Origin: Bacteroidales bacterium
Lineage (GTDB): Bacteria > Bacteroidota > Bacteroidia > Bacteroidales > Muribaculaceae
Length of the DNA stretch: 40,981 nt
Direction of reading: 5' to 3'
NCBI GenBank assembly: GCA_030524765.1
Contig: JAUNGA010000014.1
Location: 1-40,981 of the forward strand
Each line of letters starts with the position of its first letter. The stretch's first letter is position 1. The notes under the pieces are model-generated. The model ran no database searches, was not told where the DNA came from, and saw only the letters and a list, made by a program, of their open reading frames with translations. The position numbers were made by a program, and so were the translations under genes. Of the stretch, positions 37,572 through 40,951 are shown piece by piece.

Positions 37572-38042
37572 ATGAGCGAAGTTGAACTGGTGCTCGTCAA
37601 CGACACCGACAAATGTACCATATACACGATTCAGTTTGCCACTGAATCAGAAACCGAGTATGAGCGGTTTTACTCCAGATTCATTGCCGATGCCAAGCTG
37701 AACCAAGACTTGCTTCGCATCGTGCAACTCGTGGATAAGATTGCCGACGAGGGTGCGTTGGAACGCTTCTTCCGCCCGGAGGGCAAGATGCGCGACTCGG
37801 TCGTGGCATTGCCGTTGCTTCGTTCAAAACTCAGGCTCTATTGTCTGCGCCTTTCCGACCAAATCCTTATCCTCGGCAATGGAGGTGTGAAGAACTCGCG
37901 TACATACGAAGAGGACGATTCTCTGCGCGGCTATGTCCTCACTCTCCAAAAATTTGAGGAACTTCTCAAAGAGGGCCAACGCGACGGAACGGTGACTATA
38001 ACCGCAAAAACTATCGAAACCGACAAAACTTTTGAGCTATGA
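37572..38042 (+). CDS. RelE/HigB-like type II toxin
   Basis: The 156-residue protein is long for a RelE/ParE toxin (about 90-120). The central part L-R-S-K-L-R-L-Y-C-L-R-L-S-D-Q-I-L-I-L-G-N-G-G-V-K is the beta-hairpin core typical of HigB/RelE-like toxins, which cleave mRNA at the ribosome. An extra N-terminal helical part of about 60 residues and a C-terminal tail are present. The stop overlaps the downstream antitoxin ATG (ATGA at 38039-38042), so the order is toxin first, as in HigBA. The methyltransferase follows in the same direction. Confidence 0.8.
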   Translation: MSEVELVLVNDTDKCTIYTIQFATESETEYERFYSRFIADAKLNQDLLRIVQLVDKIADEGALERFFRPEGKMRDSVVALPLLRSKLRLYCLRLSDQILILGNGGVKNSRTYEEDDSLRGYVLTLQKFEELLKEGQRDGTVTITAKTIETDKTFEL

Positions 38043-38302
38043 AGGATATAAGAAATCGATATCGCGAAATGGTGGCGCAGGTTCCACAGCCGATAAAAGA
38101 TGAAATCGACCTGTCCTTTGCCATTTCCAACAAGATAGATTCGTTGATGAAAGAGCGCGGCCTCTCAAAGAAACAATTTGCAGATGCTCTCGGTAAACGT
38201 CCCGGTGAAGTAACGCGCTGGCTCAGCGGGCAACACAACTTCACTATTTCTACCCTCGCAATGCTGTCCTCCTTTTTCGGCAAATCTATAATCTCAGTGT
38301 GA
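38039..38302 (+). CDS. XRE family antitoxin (HigA-like)
   Basis: The 87-residue protein has a Cro/C1-type HTH at about residues 35-82 (L-S-K-K-Q-F-A-D-A-L-G-K-R-P-G-E-V-T-R-W-L-S-G), followed by F-T-I-S-T-L-A-M-L. HigA-type antitoxins bind the toxin and repress their own promoter. It is coupled to the toxin by a 4-bp overlap. Only 2 nt separate its stop from the methyltransferase ATG at 38305, so the methyltransferase is probably under antitoxin control as well. Confidence 0.85.
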   Translation: MKDIRNRYREMVAQVPQPIKDEIDLSFAISNKIDSLMKERGLSKKQFADALGKRPGEVTRWLSGQHNFTISTLAMLSSFFGKSIISV

Positions 38303-38304
38303 TT

Positions 38305-39417
38305 ATGGCAAATGAATCCCTATCAGCGGCAAAAGCAGCTAAAAACGATGAGTTTTACACTCAATACTACGATATTGAGCGTGAGATAAGTGCTTATCTT
38401 GAATACAATCCGGATGTATTCAGGGGTAAAACGGTTTTGCTTCCATGCGATGATCCCGAATGGAGCAACTTTACGCTCTATTTCGCACAGCATTTCCAGA
38501 CGCTTGGGCTGAAAAAGTTGATTTCCACTTCTTACGCTCCCGAAAGCAAGAAATACAAGACACCTTACCAACCATCACTTTTTGAGCATGATGCGCCGCA
38601 GTTTGACCCGGCTAAGACATCGGTACGTGGTAAAATCTTTATCCTCGACCACGACATTGATGGTGACGGTCGCATTGACTTCCACGACCTCGAATGGCGG
38701 TACCTCGACGGTGACGGAGATTTCCGCAGTGCCGAAGTCACCGCACTTCGTGACGAAGCCGATATCATTGTTACCAATCCGCCTTTCTCCCTTTTCCGTG
38801 AGTTCCTTGCATGGATAGTTAAAGCTGATAAACAATTCGTGATTATCGGTAATATGAATGCGTTGACATATAAAGAAGTTTTTCCGCTTATAATGTCCAA
38901 TAAAATATGGATGGGGTGTACCATTCACAGTGGAGATCGAGAATTTGGCGTTCCCGATTATTACCCATTGAATGCAGCCGGGTGGCGTATTGATGAAAAT
39001 GGCAACAAGTATATACGAGTAAAAGGAGTACGTTGGTTTACAAACTTAGACCACGGTCGTCGTCATCAGCCATTGTCCTTAATGACAATGGAGGAAAACA
39101 TTATGTATTCCAAGCACAAAGAGATACGCGGCATAGGCTATGAGCATTATGAAAACTACGATGCGATGGAAGTCCCCTATACCGATGCAATCCCGTCAGA
39201 TTACGAGGGTGTCATGGGGGTACCCATTACTTTTCTCGACAAATATTGCCCGGAGCAATATTCGATATTAGGGATAAGCCTTGAAGAAGCTGAAATGAGC
39301 AATATTAAATCTGAACTTGGCAAATTATCGGGTGGCCCTCGATTTTATGTTAGAAGAAATGGAGAATTAATACGTCTTTATGAACGTATTATCATTAAGA
39401 AAGTTACAACCTTTTGA
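38305..39417 (+). CDS. EcoRI-family adenine-specific DNA methyltransferase (current tail A)
   Basis: The 370-residue protein belongs to the EcoRI methylase family. It opens A-K-A-A-K-N-D-E-F-Y-T-Q-Y and has L-L-P-C-D-D-P-E-W-S-N-F near residues 45-56 (cofactor region). The catalytic T-N-P-P-F-S motif is at about 157-162. An acidic Asp-Gly-rich stretch (D-I-D-G-D-G-R-I-D, about 117-125) resembles a calcium-binding loop. The protein is complete. The last 51 residues (from about 320, S-I-L-G-I-S) are the variable tail and end L-Y-E-R-I-I-I-K-K. They start at the repeat 39260-39275. Two alternative tails lie inverted downstream (39404-39600 and 39600-39763). ATG 38305 is preferred; a GTG at 38299 is in frame. 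It should modify adenine in its target. Confidence 0.88.
   Translation: MANESLSAAKAAKNDEFYTQYYDIEREISAYLEYNPDVFRGKTVLLPCDDPEWSNFTLYFAQHFQTLGLKKLISTSYAPESKKYKTPYQPSLFEHDAPQFDPAKTSVRGKIFILDHDIDGDGRIDFHDLEWRYLDGDGDFRSAEVTALRDEADIIVTNPPFSLFREFLAWIVKADKQFVIIGNMNALTYKEVFPLIMSNKIWMGCTIHSGDREFGVPDYYPLNAAGWRIDENGNKYIRVKGVRWFTNLDHGRRHQPLSLMTMEENIMYSKHKEIRGIGYEHYENYDAMEVPYTDAIPSDYEGVMGVPITFLDKYCPEQYSILGISLEEAEMSNIKSELGKLSGGPRFYVRRNGELIRLYERIIIKKVTTF
39242..39275 (+). repeat. Recombination-site candidate A (16-bp repeat plus dyad)
   Basis: ATTCGATATTAGGGAT (39260-39275) occurs again inverted at 39585-39600. Its first ten bases occur inverted again at 39754-39763. Just upstream is the perfect dyad AATATTGC-ccgga-GCAATATT (39242-39262), overlapping the start of the core. 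It marks the boundary between the constant part and the tail of the methyltransferase. Confidence 0.8.
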
Positions 39418-39600
39418 TTAAAATTCGCTGATAAACTTTCTCACGTAGTCCATTTCTTACAACGACACCGCTTGCATTCAAATCATACGTTCCAATTCTT
39501 CCGAATTTATGATAATACGCATCTTTACATTCCTGAGTTGAATAACTCCGGGATTTCAATGAATATAGATTCTCATTCTCACACATCCCTAATATCGAAT
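39404..39600 (-). other. Alternative methyltransferase tail B (inverted, promoterless)
   Basis: This minus-strand frame starts at the inverted copy of the 16-bp repeat and stops with TAA at 39404-39406. From S-I-L-G-M-C it encodes 64 residues and ends V-Y-Q-R-I-L-I-K-R-L. This matches the end of tail A (L-Y-E-R-I-I-I-K-K) and differs in between. It has no start codon or promoter of its own. The frame stays open further upstream to a Met codon at 39634, but that part is another reading of tail C. If the DNA between the two repeats were inverted, this tail would join residue 319 of the methyltransferase in the correct frame. Tails A and B overlap tail to tail by 14 bp. Confidence 0.8.
39585..39600 (-). 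repeat. Recombination-site candidate B (inverted 16-bp repeat)
   Basis: This is the exact reverse complement of 39260-39275, 309 bp away from it. In coding orientation it is preceded by the small dyad AATCAA-aca-TTGATT, which overlaps the core. The stop codon of tail C (39600-39602) shares its first base. Confidence 0.85.
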
Positions 39601-39763
39601 CAATGTTTGATTTTTCTAATAAAGATACGACCATAGGTGCGATTGCCGTTTACCACGGTACAACCGCCACGATCTTGGGGATGCGGCCTATATTTCAATT
39701 CAGCAAGTATTTCGCTTGGAGCAGAGGCTCTTGTGTTCCCACTCGCTTGCCACAATATCGAAT
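39600..39763 (-). other. Alternative methyltransferase tail C (inverted, promoterless)
   Basis: This minus-strand frame begins at the repeat core at 39754-39763 (read ATTCGATATT) in the same phase as tails A and B. It encodes 53 residues from [11 protein letters not shown] to a TGA at 39600-39602. It ends [12 protein letters not shown], the same C-terminal family motif. Internal features are P-H-P-Q-D-R-G-G and V-V-N-G-N-R. It has no start codon. Tails B and C abut exactly at base 39600. Inversion between 39260-39269 and 39754-39763 would attach it in frame. The core is shorter here (10 identical bases, then GG two bases further), so it may recombine less well. Confidence 0.75.
39754..39763 (-). 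repeat. Recombination-site candidate C (10-bp core)
   Basis: This is the minus-strand copy of ATTCGATATT. Together with the other two sites the shared pattern is ATTCGATATTnnGG. It lies 18 bp before the ATG of the DUF262-HNH gene. Confidence 0.65.
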
Positions 39764-39781
39764 TTTAAGGACAATAAACCG

Positions 39782-40951
39782 ATGAAAACAAAACTACATA
39801 CAGAGTGGACAGTCGCCGATATCTGTGACGGCTTTGTCTACAACGAATACGAGGCCAAAGGTCTTTTCGGCATGGGTGGGCAACTCACCATTCAGCCGGA
39901 GTATCAACGCAACTATATTTATGCCGACGGCAAACGGGATGTTGCCGTAATAGACTCTGTGCTTAAAGGTTATCCGCTCGGTGTGATTTACTTTGTCAAG
40001 ACAGCGGACGGCCGGTTTGAGGTGCTTGACGGACAGCAACGCATCACCTCTCTCGGACGGTTCTACAACGGTGCTGGAAAACTTAGCTGGAAAGACAGTC
40101 AAGGTCTTCCACAAAGTCTCGGCAGTCTGCCGAAAGAGCTGCGCGAAAAGTTCTTGAACGCCCAATTATTGATATACGAGTGCGAGGGCACCGAGCAAGA
40201 AATAAAGGAGTGGTTCAAGACCATAAACATTGCCGGAGTGCCGCTCAACAATCAGGAATTGCTCAACGCTGTATATTCCGGCCCGTTTATCACCGCAGCA
40301 AAGGAGGTGTTCAGCAACTCGCAGACATCTCAAATTCAGAAATGGAGTGCCTATATTAACGGAGCAGTCAACCGACAGGACTTTCTTGCAACCGCCCTCG
40401 AATGGGTGAGCCGAGGTAATGTCGAGGAATATATGCGCGACCACCGATTCAGCTCAGACATCACGGAACTTGTCAACTACTTCAACTCGGTAATTGGTTG
40501 GGTGCGCACGGTCTTTCCTATCGTTGAAAACGAAATGCGAGGTTTGCCGTGGGGTGAACTTTATGAACGATACCACAACACGCCCTATAATCCAACTCAA
40601 ATGGTTCAAAGAGTCAAGGAACTGTATGCCGACCCATACGTTAAGAGCCGCCGGGGAATATTTGAATATCTTCTTGGCGGCGAAATAGACAAGAAACTCC
40701 TTGACATCCGTATATTTGATGAAGCCACCAAACGTGCTGTTTATTCTCGCCAGACCGAGTACGCAAAGGAAAAAGGAATTTCAAACTGTCCCGATTGCGC
40801 CTTAGGCCATCAAGCTACCGCACAGAAAATATGGAAGCCCGGCGAGATGGATGCCGATCACGTTACGGCGTGGAGCCGTGGTGGCGCAACATCGATTGAA
40901 AACTGCCAGATGCTTTGCAAACACCACACCCGCGCCAAGGGCAATCGCTGA
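39782..40951 (+). CDS. DUF262-HNH nuclease
   Basis: The 389-residue protein has an N-terminal DUF262 (GmrS/ParB-like) domain with the signature [11 protein letters not shown] (D-G-Q-Q-R at about residues 83-87) and Y-Q-R-N-Y at 41-45. A helical middle follows. The C-terminal HNH domain (about 336-389) has a C-P-D-C zinc knuckle, [12 protein letters not shown], and [14 protein letters not shown]262 domains bind or hydrolyse nucleotides and often sense DNA modification; HNH cuts DNA. It could be the restriction partner of the adjacent methyltransferase or a modification-dependent nuclease. ATG 39782 is chosen; the frame is open to 39716 but that part overlaps site C. Confidence 0.88.

Follow-up and report, generated by a model that had tools for sequence, protein, structure and literature searches.

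The window analysed here, that is, the whole stretch of DNA under study, is contig JAUNGA010000014.1 in its entirety (40,981 nucleotides), part of the 2.36-Mb, 127-contig assembly GCA_030524765.1 of a Bacteroidales bacterium (Muribaculaceae). Close to its end, it carries a gene for an EcoRI-family adenine methyltransferase and, behind it, two silent and inverted alternatives to the C-terminal tail of the encoded protein. We consider it probable that this locus is a recombinase-driven specificity switch built into a single-chain methyltransferase. The presence of three interchangeable tails in the window is confirmed and, in related loci, the following can be observed: (i) the recombination sites; (ii) reciprocal arrangements of the tails; (iii) the excision of a tail cassette; and (iv) the association of these loci with one lineage of tyrosine recombinases.

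The methyltransferase gene and its tails

The methyltransferase is a full-length member of its family, as its match to PF13651 (E = 2.1e-131) covers positions 2-344 of a profile of 345. In its NPPF motif, residues N158, P159 and P160 are invariant among 115 sequences, and F161 is found in at least 90% of them. The gene, its tails and its sites are as follows:

38305..39417, plus strand: EcoRI-family adenine methyltransferase, open reading frame of 370 amino acids (body, residues 1-319, followed by tail A)
39260..39275, plus strand: recombination site 1, head of expressed tail A; exact inverted copy at 39585-39600; relatives recombine at the same place
39262..39417, plus strand: tail A, expressed (SLQLADM-like class); best non-self match in locus L014, E = 2e-21
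39404..39600, minus strand: tail B, silent (GMCENEDLY-like class); codon phase shared; matched by 22 of 168 expressed tails, the best in L090 (73% identity, E = 1.8e-33)
39585..39600, minus strand: recombination site 2, head of tail B; 16/16 identity to site 1, inverted
39600..39763, minus strand: tail C, silent; matched by 8 of 168 expressed tails (two weakly), the best in L029 (76% identity, E = 3.4e-28)
39754..39763, minus strand: recombination site 3, head of tail C; 10 exact bases; 39754-39766 pairs 12/13 with 39257-39269

Site 1 lies within a conserved strand (residues 319-324 of the methyltransferase), and the ten exact bases at site 3 are ATTCGATATT, inverted at 39754-39763. An earlier note, made from the sequence alone, had described these elements, and all of them are present where it placed them, including the exact 16-bp inverted copy of site 1 and the inverted ten-base copy at the head of tail C (12/13 in register). 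Likewise, the three tails do share the codon phase and the terminal motif Y-x-R-I-x-I-[KR]-[KR], and the products of inversion are in frame: re-orientation in silico between the sites of the window yields proteins that have the body and the last strand in common and are 370 amino acids long with tail A, 383 with B and 372 with C. The note had also described B and C as being without start codons. For C, no minus-strand open reading frame of at least 60 amino acids is listed; for B, the description is not strictly correct, since the stop-to-stop frame of this tail holds an ATG at 39634, 34 bases before its site.

As the note had supposed, tails B and C are related to the C-termini of the EcoRI family, being homologous to tails that are expressed elsewhere (see the best matches listed above). 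The set used for this comparison consists of 168 expressed tails from relatives; it includes tail A of the window and has duplicate entries for some loci. The window has 547 stop-to-stop frames of at least 40 amino acids; apart from those of the methyltransferase, B and C, none matches this set at E ≤ 1e-3. Shuffled versions of B and C (400 shuffles) gave one match line. No match to PF01420 (Methylase_S) at E ≤ 1 was obtained for the methyltransferase, tail B or tail C.

A recurrent module and its pool of tails

The methyltransferase gene is present in 34 of 196 genomes, the source genome included. As relatives, the best 80 of 572 genome matches and the best 80 of 102 viral-contig matches were taken (loci are given below as L numbers, genomes as G numbers and their contigs as C numbers). 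A module recurs among these relatives, with (i) the methyltransferase; (ii) alternative tails; (iii) a DUF262-HNH endonuclease; and (iv) a tyrosine recombinase. Records that carry it include Bacteroides neonati MS4, Muribaculaceae bacterium Isolate-104 and Phocaeicola massiliensis TSDC17.2-1.1. Many relatives align only up to residue 322-325, which is where the tail starts, and the 168 expressed tails fall into 18 single-linkage clusters, several of which are common to distant bodies.

Reverse-strand silent tails with a junction repeat are found in the window and in L002, L003/L163, L022, L031, L065, L066, L069, L082, L089, L090, L137, L166 and L169; separate examinations found reverse tails in L075 and L152 too. 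L031 has four tails, and L066 has four heads, one of them out of frame. In the window as in its relatives, the alternative coding segments are inverted, a copy of the site stands at each head and the phase is shared. Junction repeats are 13-21 bp long. The core at the tail heads is TTGAAATCTTAGG in most of the loci compared; its letters vary between loci and are uniform among the heads of one locus, the locus-specific cores being ATTCGATATT in the window, TTCAATCTTAGG in L002 and L082, and TTGAAATATTAGGG in L003. The first residue of the tail is E in 145 of the 168 expressed tails and S only in the window (L001), L002 and L082, as expected if recombination homogenises the heads of one locus.

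To judge from substitution patterns, relatives conserve the protein sequence of their silent tails. Across loci, 19 silent-silent pairs were compared, 14 of them with a finite rate of synonymous substitution (dS); the ratio of non-synonymous to synonymous substitution (dN/dS) ranges from 0 to 0.33 and is at most 0.20 in 13 of the 14, in a data set in which many dS values exceed 1, pairs are not independent, and pairs below 50% identity or with dS ≤ 0.02 were excluded. The tails compared are those recognised by a head pattern, which missed the tails of the window and one tail of L082.

Other arrangements of the family also occur. At G047:C47:15681-17929 (L162, L192), two complete family methyltransferases with different tails stand in tandem, followed by a DUF262-HNH gene; the best recombinase match in G047 is of 28%. 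In five loci, a common protein is encoded between the tail array and the endonuclease; its copy at L191:7771-8622 is a Bro-N protein and matches the PADLOC candidate PDC-S13 (2e-138).

Rearrangements between close relatives

Between close relatives, the segment that carries the tails is inverted. The flanks of L089 and L169 are 99.9% identical over 1,017 and 1,292 bp, and the 392-bp segment between them is inverted at 99.7% identity. L191 covers the same place as L169 at greater length; compared over 2,500 bases, L089 differs from it by 1,129 mismatches when unaltered, by 895 after inversion alone and by 1 after inversion and excision. For this comparison, L089 was altered in silico at the 13-bp core TTGAAATCTTAGG, by re-orienting what lies between its sites 1 and 2 and removing the cassette between its sites 2 and 3. 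As only one mismatch is left, a single inversion together with a single exact excision (or insertion) separates L089 from L191. L002 and L082 form a second inverted pair (flanks 97.8% and 94.8% identical; 384 bp inverted at 96.4%), and OY725995.1 (P. massiliensis), with flanks about 97% identical, has a different pair of ON and silent tails. The exchange of the tail by DNA inversion, as interpreted in the earlier note, is thus supported by reciprocal arrangements in related loci (L089 vs L169/L191; L002 vs L082). Its term "miniature shufflon" understates the locus, as the relatives reveal a module with a recombinase lineage of its own, a DUF262-HNH endonuclease and cassette excision.

Inversion within the sampled populations is strongly indicated as well. 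In seven related genomes, the assembly is interrupted at the site or shortly after it: the contigs of L005, L006, L011, L023, L027 and L059 include only the first 11 or 12 bases of the tail, stopping inside the core, and that of L013 includes its first 51 bases. More generally, the junction was located in 154 of 160 loci, and 32 of these 154 end no more than 2,500 bases beyond it. In G002, G003, G033 and G408, whose methyltransferase contigs are G002:C53 (L011), G003:C7 (L013), G033:C27 (L023) and G408:C10 (L059), the endonuclease and the recombinase are on another contig, which, read in that orientation, starts at the site itself or no more than about 55 bases from it. The terminal bases common to the two contigs number 14 in G002 and 19 in G408. 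In G003, the methyltransferase and endonuclease contigs share exactly 55 terminal bases, that is, one tail head with two flanks; 55 is a usual final k of SPAdes, and the relevant contig name is in the SPAdes style. The simplest reading is that both orientations are present in the G003 sample, the alternative being that a single genome holds this tail twice. On the endonuclease contig of G003 (G003:C8), the tail head and the endonuclease are separated by an open reading frame (L220:15-638) that looks, on visual inspection, like a REP-associated transposase, and the recombinase frame (L220:1866-2816) has an internal TAA at codon 104.

Beyond its recombinase, L191 encodes a second integrase, with an arm-binding domain, and a MobV relaxase (L191:2017-5535). 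A Phocaeicola bin (L066) and G102, a genome of the window's family, have near-identical stretches, which suggests a mobilisable element.

The tyrosine recombinase

In the relatives, a tyrosine recombinase of 307-317 amino acids (PF00589, 5e-27 to 4e-29 in the four tested) lies 3' of the endonuclease. At more than 50% identity, it is found in 10 of the 12 loci picked by the analyst as having inverted tails (a repeat of at least 13 bp and a reverse tail; L075 and L152 were at first picked by the repeat alone), and in 0 of 109 others (Fisher 5e-13); on genome contigs alone, the counts are 7 of 7 and 0 of 53. These figures refer to loci L002-L161 with at least 2,700 bases past the match, which are 121 of 160 (39 were left out). 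L034, whose 13-bp repeat is not accompanied by a reverse tail, and loci whose repeats are shorter than 13 bp, such as L086/L087, were counted as being without inverted tails, and the 27% recombinase match of L107 was counted as none.

Matches to the recombinase at E ≤ 1e-60 are found in 11 of 393 genomes of the order; those of G408 and G183 (77%) belong to the methyltransferase module. Eleven further recombinases, of 42-53% identity, occur in ten genomes, and 8 of these 11 adjoin Methylase_S genes (G033, G250, G124 (C7), G385, G248, G371, G421 and G327), whose copies are often opposed; the other recombinases (G174, G432 and the second one in G124, on C11) have no Methylase_S on their contig. 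In an unrooted tree of 25 rows, the 15 methyltransferase-linked recombinases form one group (support 100/99), apart from the hsdS-linked ones; the tree omits L208 (internal stop) and L232 (short reading) and carries a long-branch warning, above all for L235. Both kinds of locus can coexist: G033 carries, besides the methyltransferase module, an hsdS-type locus (L223:521-5034, on G033:C1) in which a recombinase 48-49% identical to that of the module stands beside opposed Methylase_S genes and a Fic-domain gene.

Two viral contigs, of 80.8 and 115.9 kb, encode distant members of the methyltransferase family, each with a single inverted silent tail (L137:4700-5029 and L152:4652-5144). Their repeats, of 18-21 bp, are of other sequence, and they are possibly an independent version of the switch.

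The neighbouring genes and the endonuclease

The methyltransferase gene is flanked in the window by the following genes:

39782..40951, plus strand: DUF262-HNH protein of 389 amino acids, putative cognate restriction enzyme (PF03235 GmrSD_N, 4.5e-22; PF01844 HNH, 1.7e-6; PADLOC REase_II, 2e-87)
37572..38302, plus strand: upstream pair, namely a protein of 156 amino acids like the PADLOC candidate PDC-M64B (1.2e-45) and an HTH_3 protein of 87 amino acids (3.8e-10); membership uncertain

The 156-amino-acid protein recurs upstream in L082 and L195 among 20 neighbourhoods compared, many of them with little upstream sequence, and scans of the nearest neighbours in the window revealed no BREX families. 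Downstream, by its match to PADLOC REase_II, the methyltransferase has beside it the co-encoded endonuclease, of predicted activity, that characterises Type II restriction-modification. The domain matches of this protein at E ≤ 1 include DUF262 and not DUF1524, so that the pairing found in GmrSD is incomplete. The contig ends 30 bases past the endonuclease gene, before any recombinase. A DUF262-HNH homologue within 1.6 kb downstream and on the same strand is found in 105 of the 133 relatives with at least 1.5 kb stored, and in 67 of the 67 that are on genome contigs.

Covariation was analysed in 100 loci, namely the 102 with readable body, tail and endonuclease (R) minus two near-copies. The endonuclease sequence goes with the body (r(R,body|tail) = 0.807; 0 of 2,000 permutations as high) and not with the tail, for which the raw r is 0.152 and the partial r(R,tail|body) is -0.036 (1,688 of 2,000 permutations as high). 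For instance, the endonucleases of L066, L089 and L090 are 99-100% identical, and their tails are unrelated. With a median pairwise identity of 0.63, the endonuclease is about as conserved as the body (0.66); such conservation is unusual among Type II nucleases of different specificity. Because its sequence does not track tail type, the endonuclease would seem to follow the methyltransferase. This independence also speaks against an independent reading of the site, if it is the tail that sets specificity. An endonuclease that read DNA alone, together with a tail switch that changed methylation, would leave the chromosome exposed to the endonuclease. The endonuclease may instead take its specificity from the methyltransferase or from its mark.

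The role of the tail and the proposed mechanism

The tail lies outside the part of the methyltransferase that aligns to catalytic domains, and it contains the least conserved stretch of the protein (0.30, against 0.72-0.76 for the greater part of the body). Conservation is also reduced, to 0.52, at residues 200-250 of the body (38902-39054), a stretch that shows no clear covariation with the tail (partial r 0.045; 63 of 1,000 permutations). We infer that, within the target-recognition region, the tail is the part that varies, and that switching changes the methylated sequence.

The mechanism that we propose would have the following steps: (i) a tyrosine recombinase would recombine the short core sites found at the head of each interchangeable C-terminal tail; (ii) between inverted sites, the segment would flip, and a silent tail would be fused in frame to the constant catalytic body; (iii) between direct sites, a tail cassette would be excised; (iv) the window locus would likewise switch among A, B and C, its recombinase gene presumably lying just beyond the contig end; (v) the switch of tail would change the methylated sequence; and (vi) the DUF262-HNH endonuclease, not reading sequence by itself, would obtain its specificity from the methyltransferase or its mark, with restriction and protection thus changing together. 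As regards a two-protein system in which the tail cassette alone sets recognition, a dedicated recombinase inverts and excises a shared pool of tails, and a sequence-blind nuclease follows, we regard the chances for and against it as evenly balanced.

Alternative explanations

Several observations weigh against the recombinase-driven specificity switch, and most of them bear on one or another of four alternatives. The tail is short and C-terminal, its role in recognition is presumed, and a model of the domain by itself did not convincingly match any known recognition domain. Tails might, then, be exchanged by inversion and alter partner docking, oligomerisation or activity instead of the recognised sequence; the earlier note had itself mentioned partner binding. 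We find this unlikely and, for the one partner in which it was tested, the endonuclease, disfavoured: given the body, the DUF262-HNH protein does not covary with the tail (partial r -0.036), and nearly identical endonucleases stand beside unrelated tails in L066, L089 and L090. Furthermore, the window locus has been seen in one arrangement, its site 3 is short, and its source genome (an assembly in 127 contigs) gave only distant or partial recombinase matches. Since the contig ends before a recombinase and the assembly has no close match, the recombinase of the window is predicted, not seen; in G003, as described, the recombinase frame is interrupted. The inverted tails could accordingly be silent remnants of past cassette exchange in a lineage that no longer switches. 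This is improbable in view of (i) the window's B and C, which are intact and 73-76% identical to expressed tails; (ii) the dN/dS of at most 0.20 in 13 of the 14 finite silent-silent pairs of relatives; and (iii) the near-identical relatives that differ by an exact inversion. Expressed-silent pairs mostly have a similar dN/dS, with values of up to 0.56 (L066/L090) and 0.38 (L022/L193).

That a recombinase of this lineage does the inversion is suggested by association, and two inverted-tail loci, L137 and L152, have no such recombinase in their stored flanks. General homologous recombination between the short repeats, with no dedicated recombinase, would dispense with it, a reading which we hold to be very improbable: the repeats, of 13-21 bp, are shorter than general recombination normally uses, and the recombinase, present in 10 of 12 inverted-tail loci vs 0 of 109 others, forms one group in the tree. 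At L075:4001-4978, where three tails are present, the methyltransferase frame closes just past PEQ at the site and ends in LKS, which is possibly an off state or an assembly error. It might speak for an ON/OFF phase switch of the methyltransferase in which the tails are immaterial. Such a switch is hardly credible, and the least so of the four, given that all three arrangements of the window are full-length with the conserved last strand and that the silent tails of relatives appear to be maintained as protein.

Comparison with known systems

EcoRI has a fixed single C-terminus, and its endonuclease reads the site independently. The protein of the window, which fits the model of the EcoRI-family adenine methyltransferases (PF13651, Type II) end to end, differs in its alternative C-terminal tails. 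Inversion inside a coding region is reportedly the subject of Chanin 2024 and Milman 2023, under the terms intragenic invertons and gene-altering programmed inversions. No EcoRI-family methyltransferase with invertible tails emerged from searches of open full texts, a scope that does not extend to those two works or to the paper on phase-variable restriction in B. fragilis.

Inverting type I hsdS loci, such as the pneumococcal SpnD39III, have inverted repeats in the specificity frame, downstream alternatives and a linked recombinase (PMC7394358, PMC11892184, PMC5903667). The present locus resembles these shufflons in having repeats within the frame that would determine specificity and alternative segments; its relatives have a related, separately grouped recombinase. 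It differs from them in that (i) there is no Methylase_S; (ii) the switched gene is a single-chain methyltransferase, of which only the last part is exchanged; (iii) the repeats are of 13-21 bp; and (iv) the nuclease is of the DUF262-HNH type. On account of the first two differences, it is not an hsdS shufflon.

The DUF262 nucleases GmrSD, BrxU and SspE include members that act on modification state (PMC4619093, PMC12707154). The protein of the window likewise has DUF262 and an HNH-type nuclease, but its C-terminal match is PF01844 HNH, not DUF1524, and it is paired with an EcoRI-family methyltransferase. A nuclease guided by the methyltransferase or by its mark would fit the conservation and covariation of the endonuclease, and modification-responsive DUF262 nucleases are known. 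In BREX, the methyltransferase PglX/BrxX doubles as a defence specificity factor (PMC11341690, PMC11842806); the methyltransferase of the window is of a different family.

Significance

The switching of restriction specificity by DNA inversion has already been described for type I hsdS (PMC5903667, PMC11892184, PMC7394358). In the present case, a related recombinase seems to have a single-chain methyltransferase as its target. In a simple Type II pair, a change of methylation specificity should be tolerated only where the nuclease changes with it, so that the locus points to a DUF262-HNH nuclease that would take its specificity from the methyltransferase. Moreover, since the pool of tails is a natural set of short interchangeable modules, recognition in this family becomes directly testable. 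Finally, the locus adds a phasevarion candidate in gut commensals.
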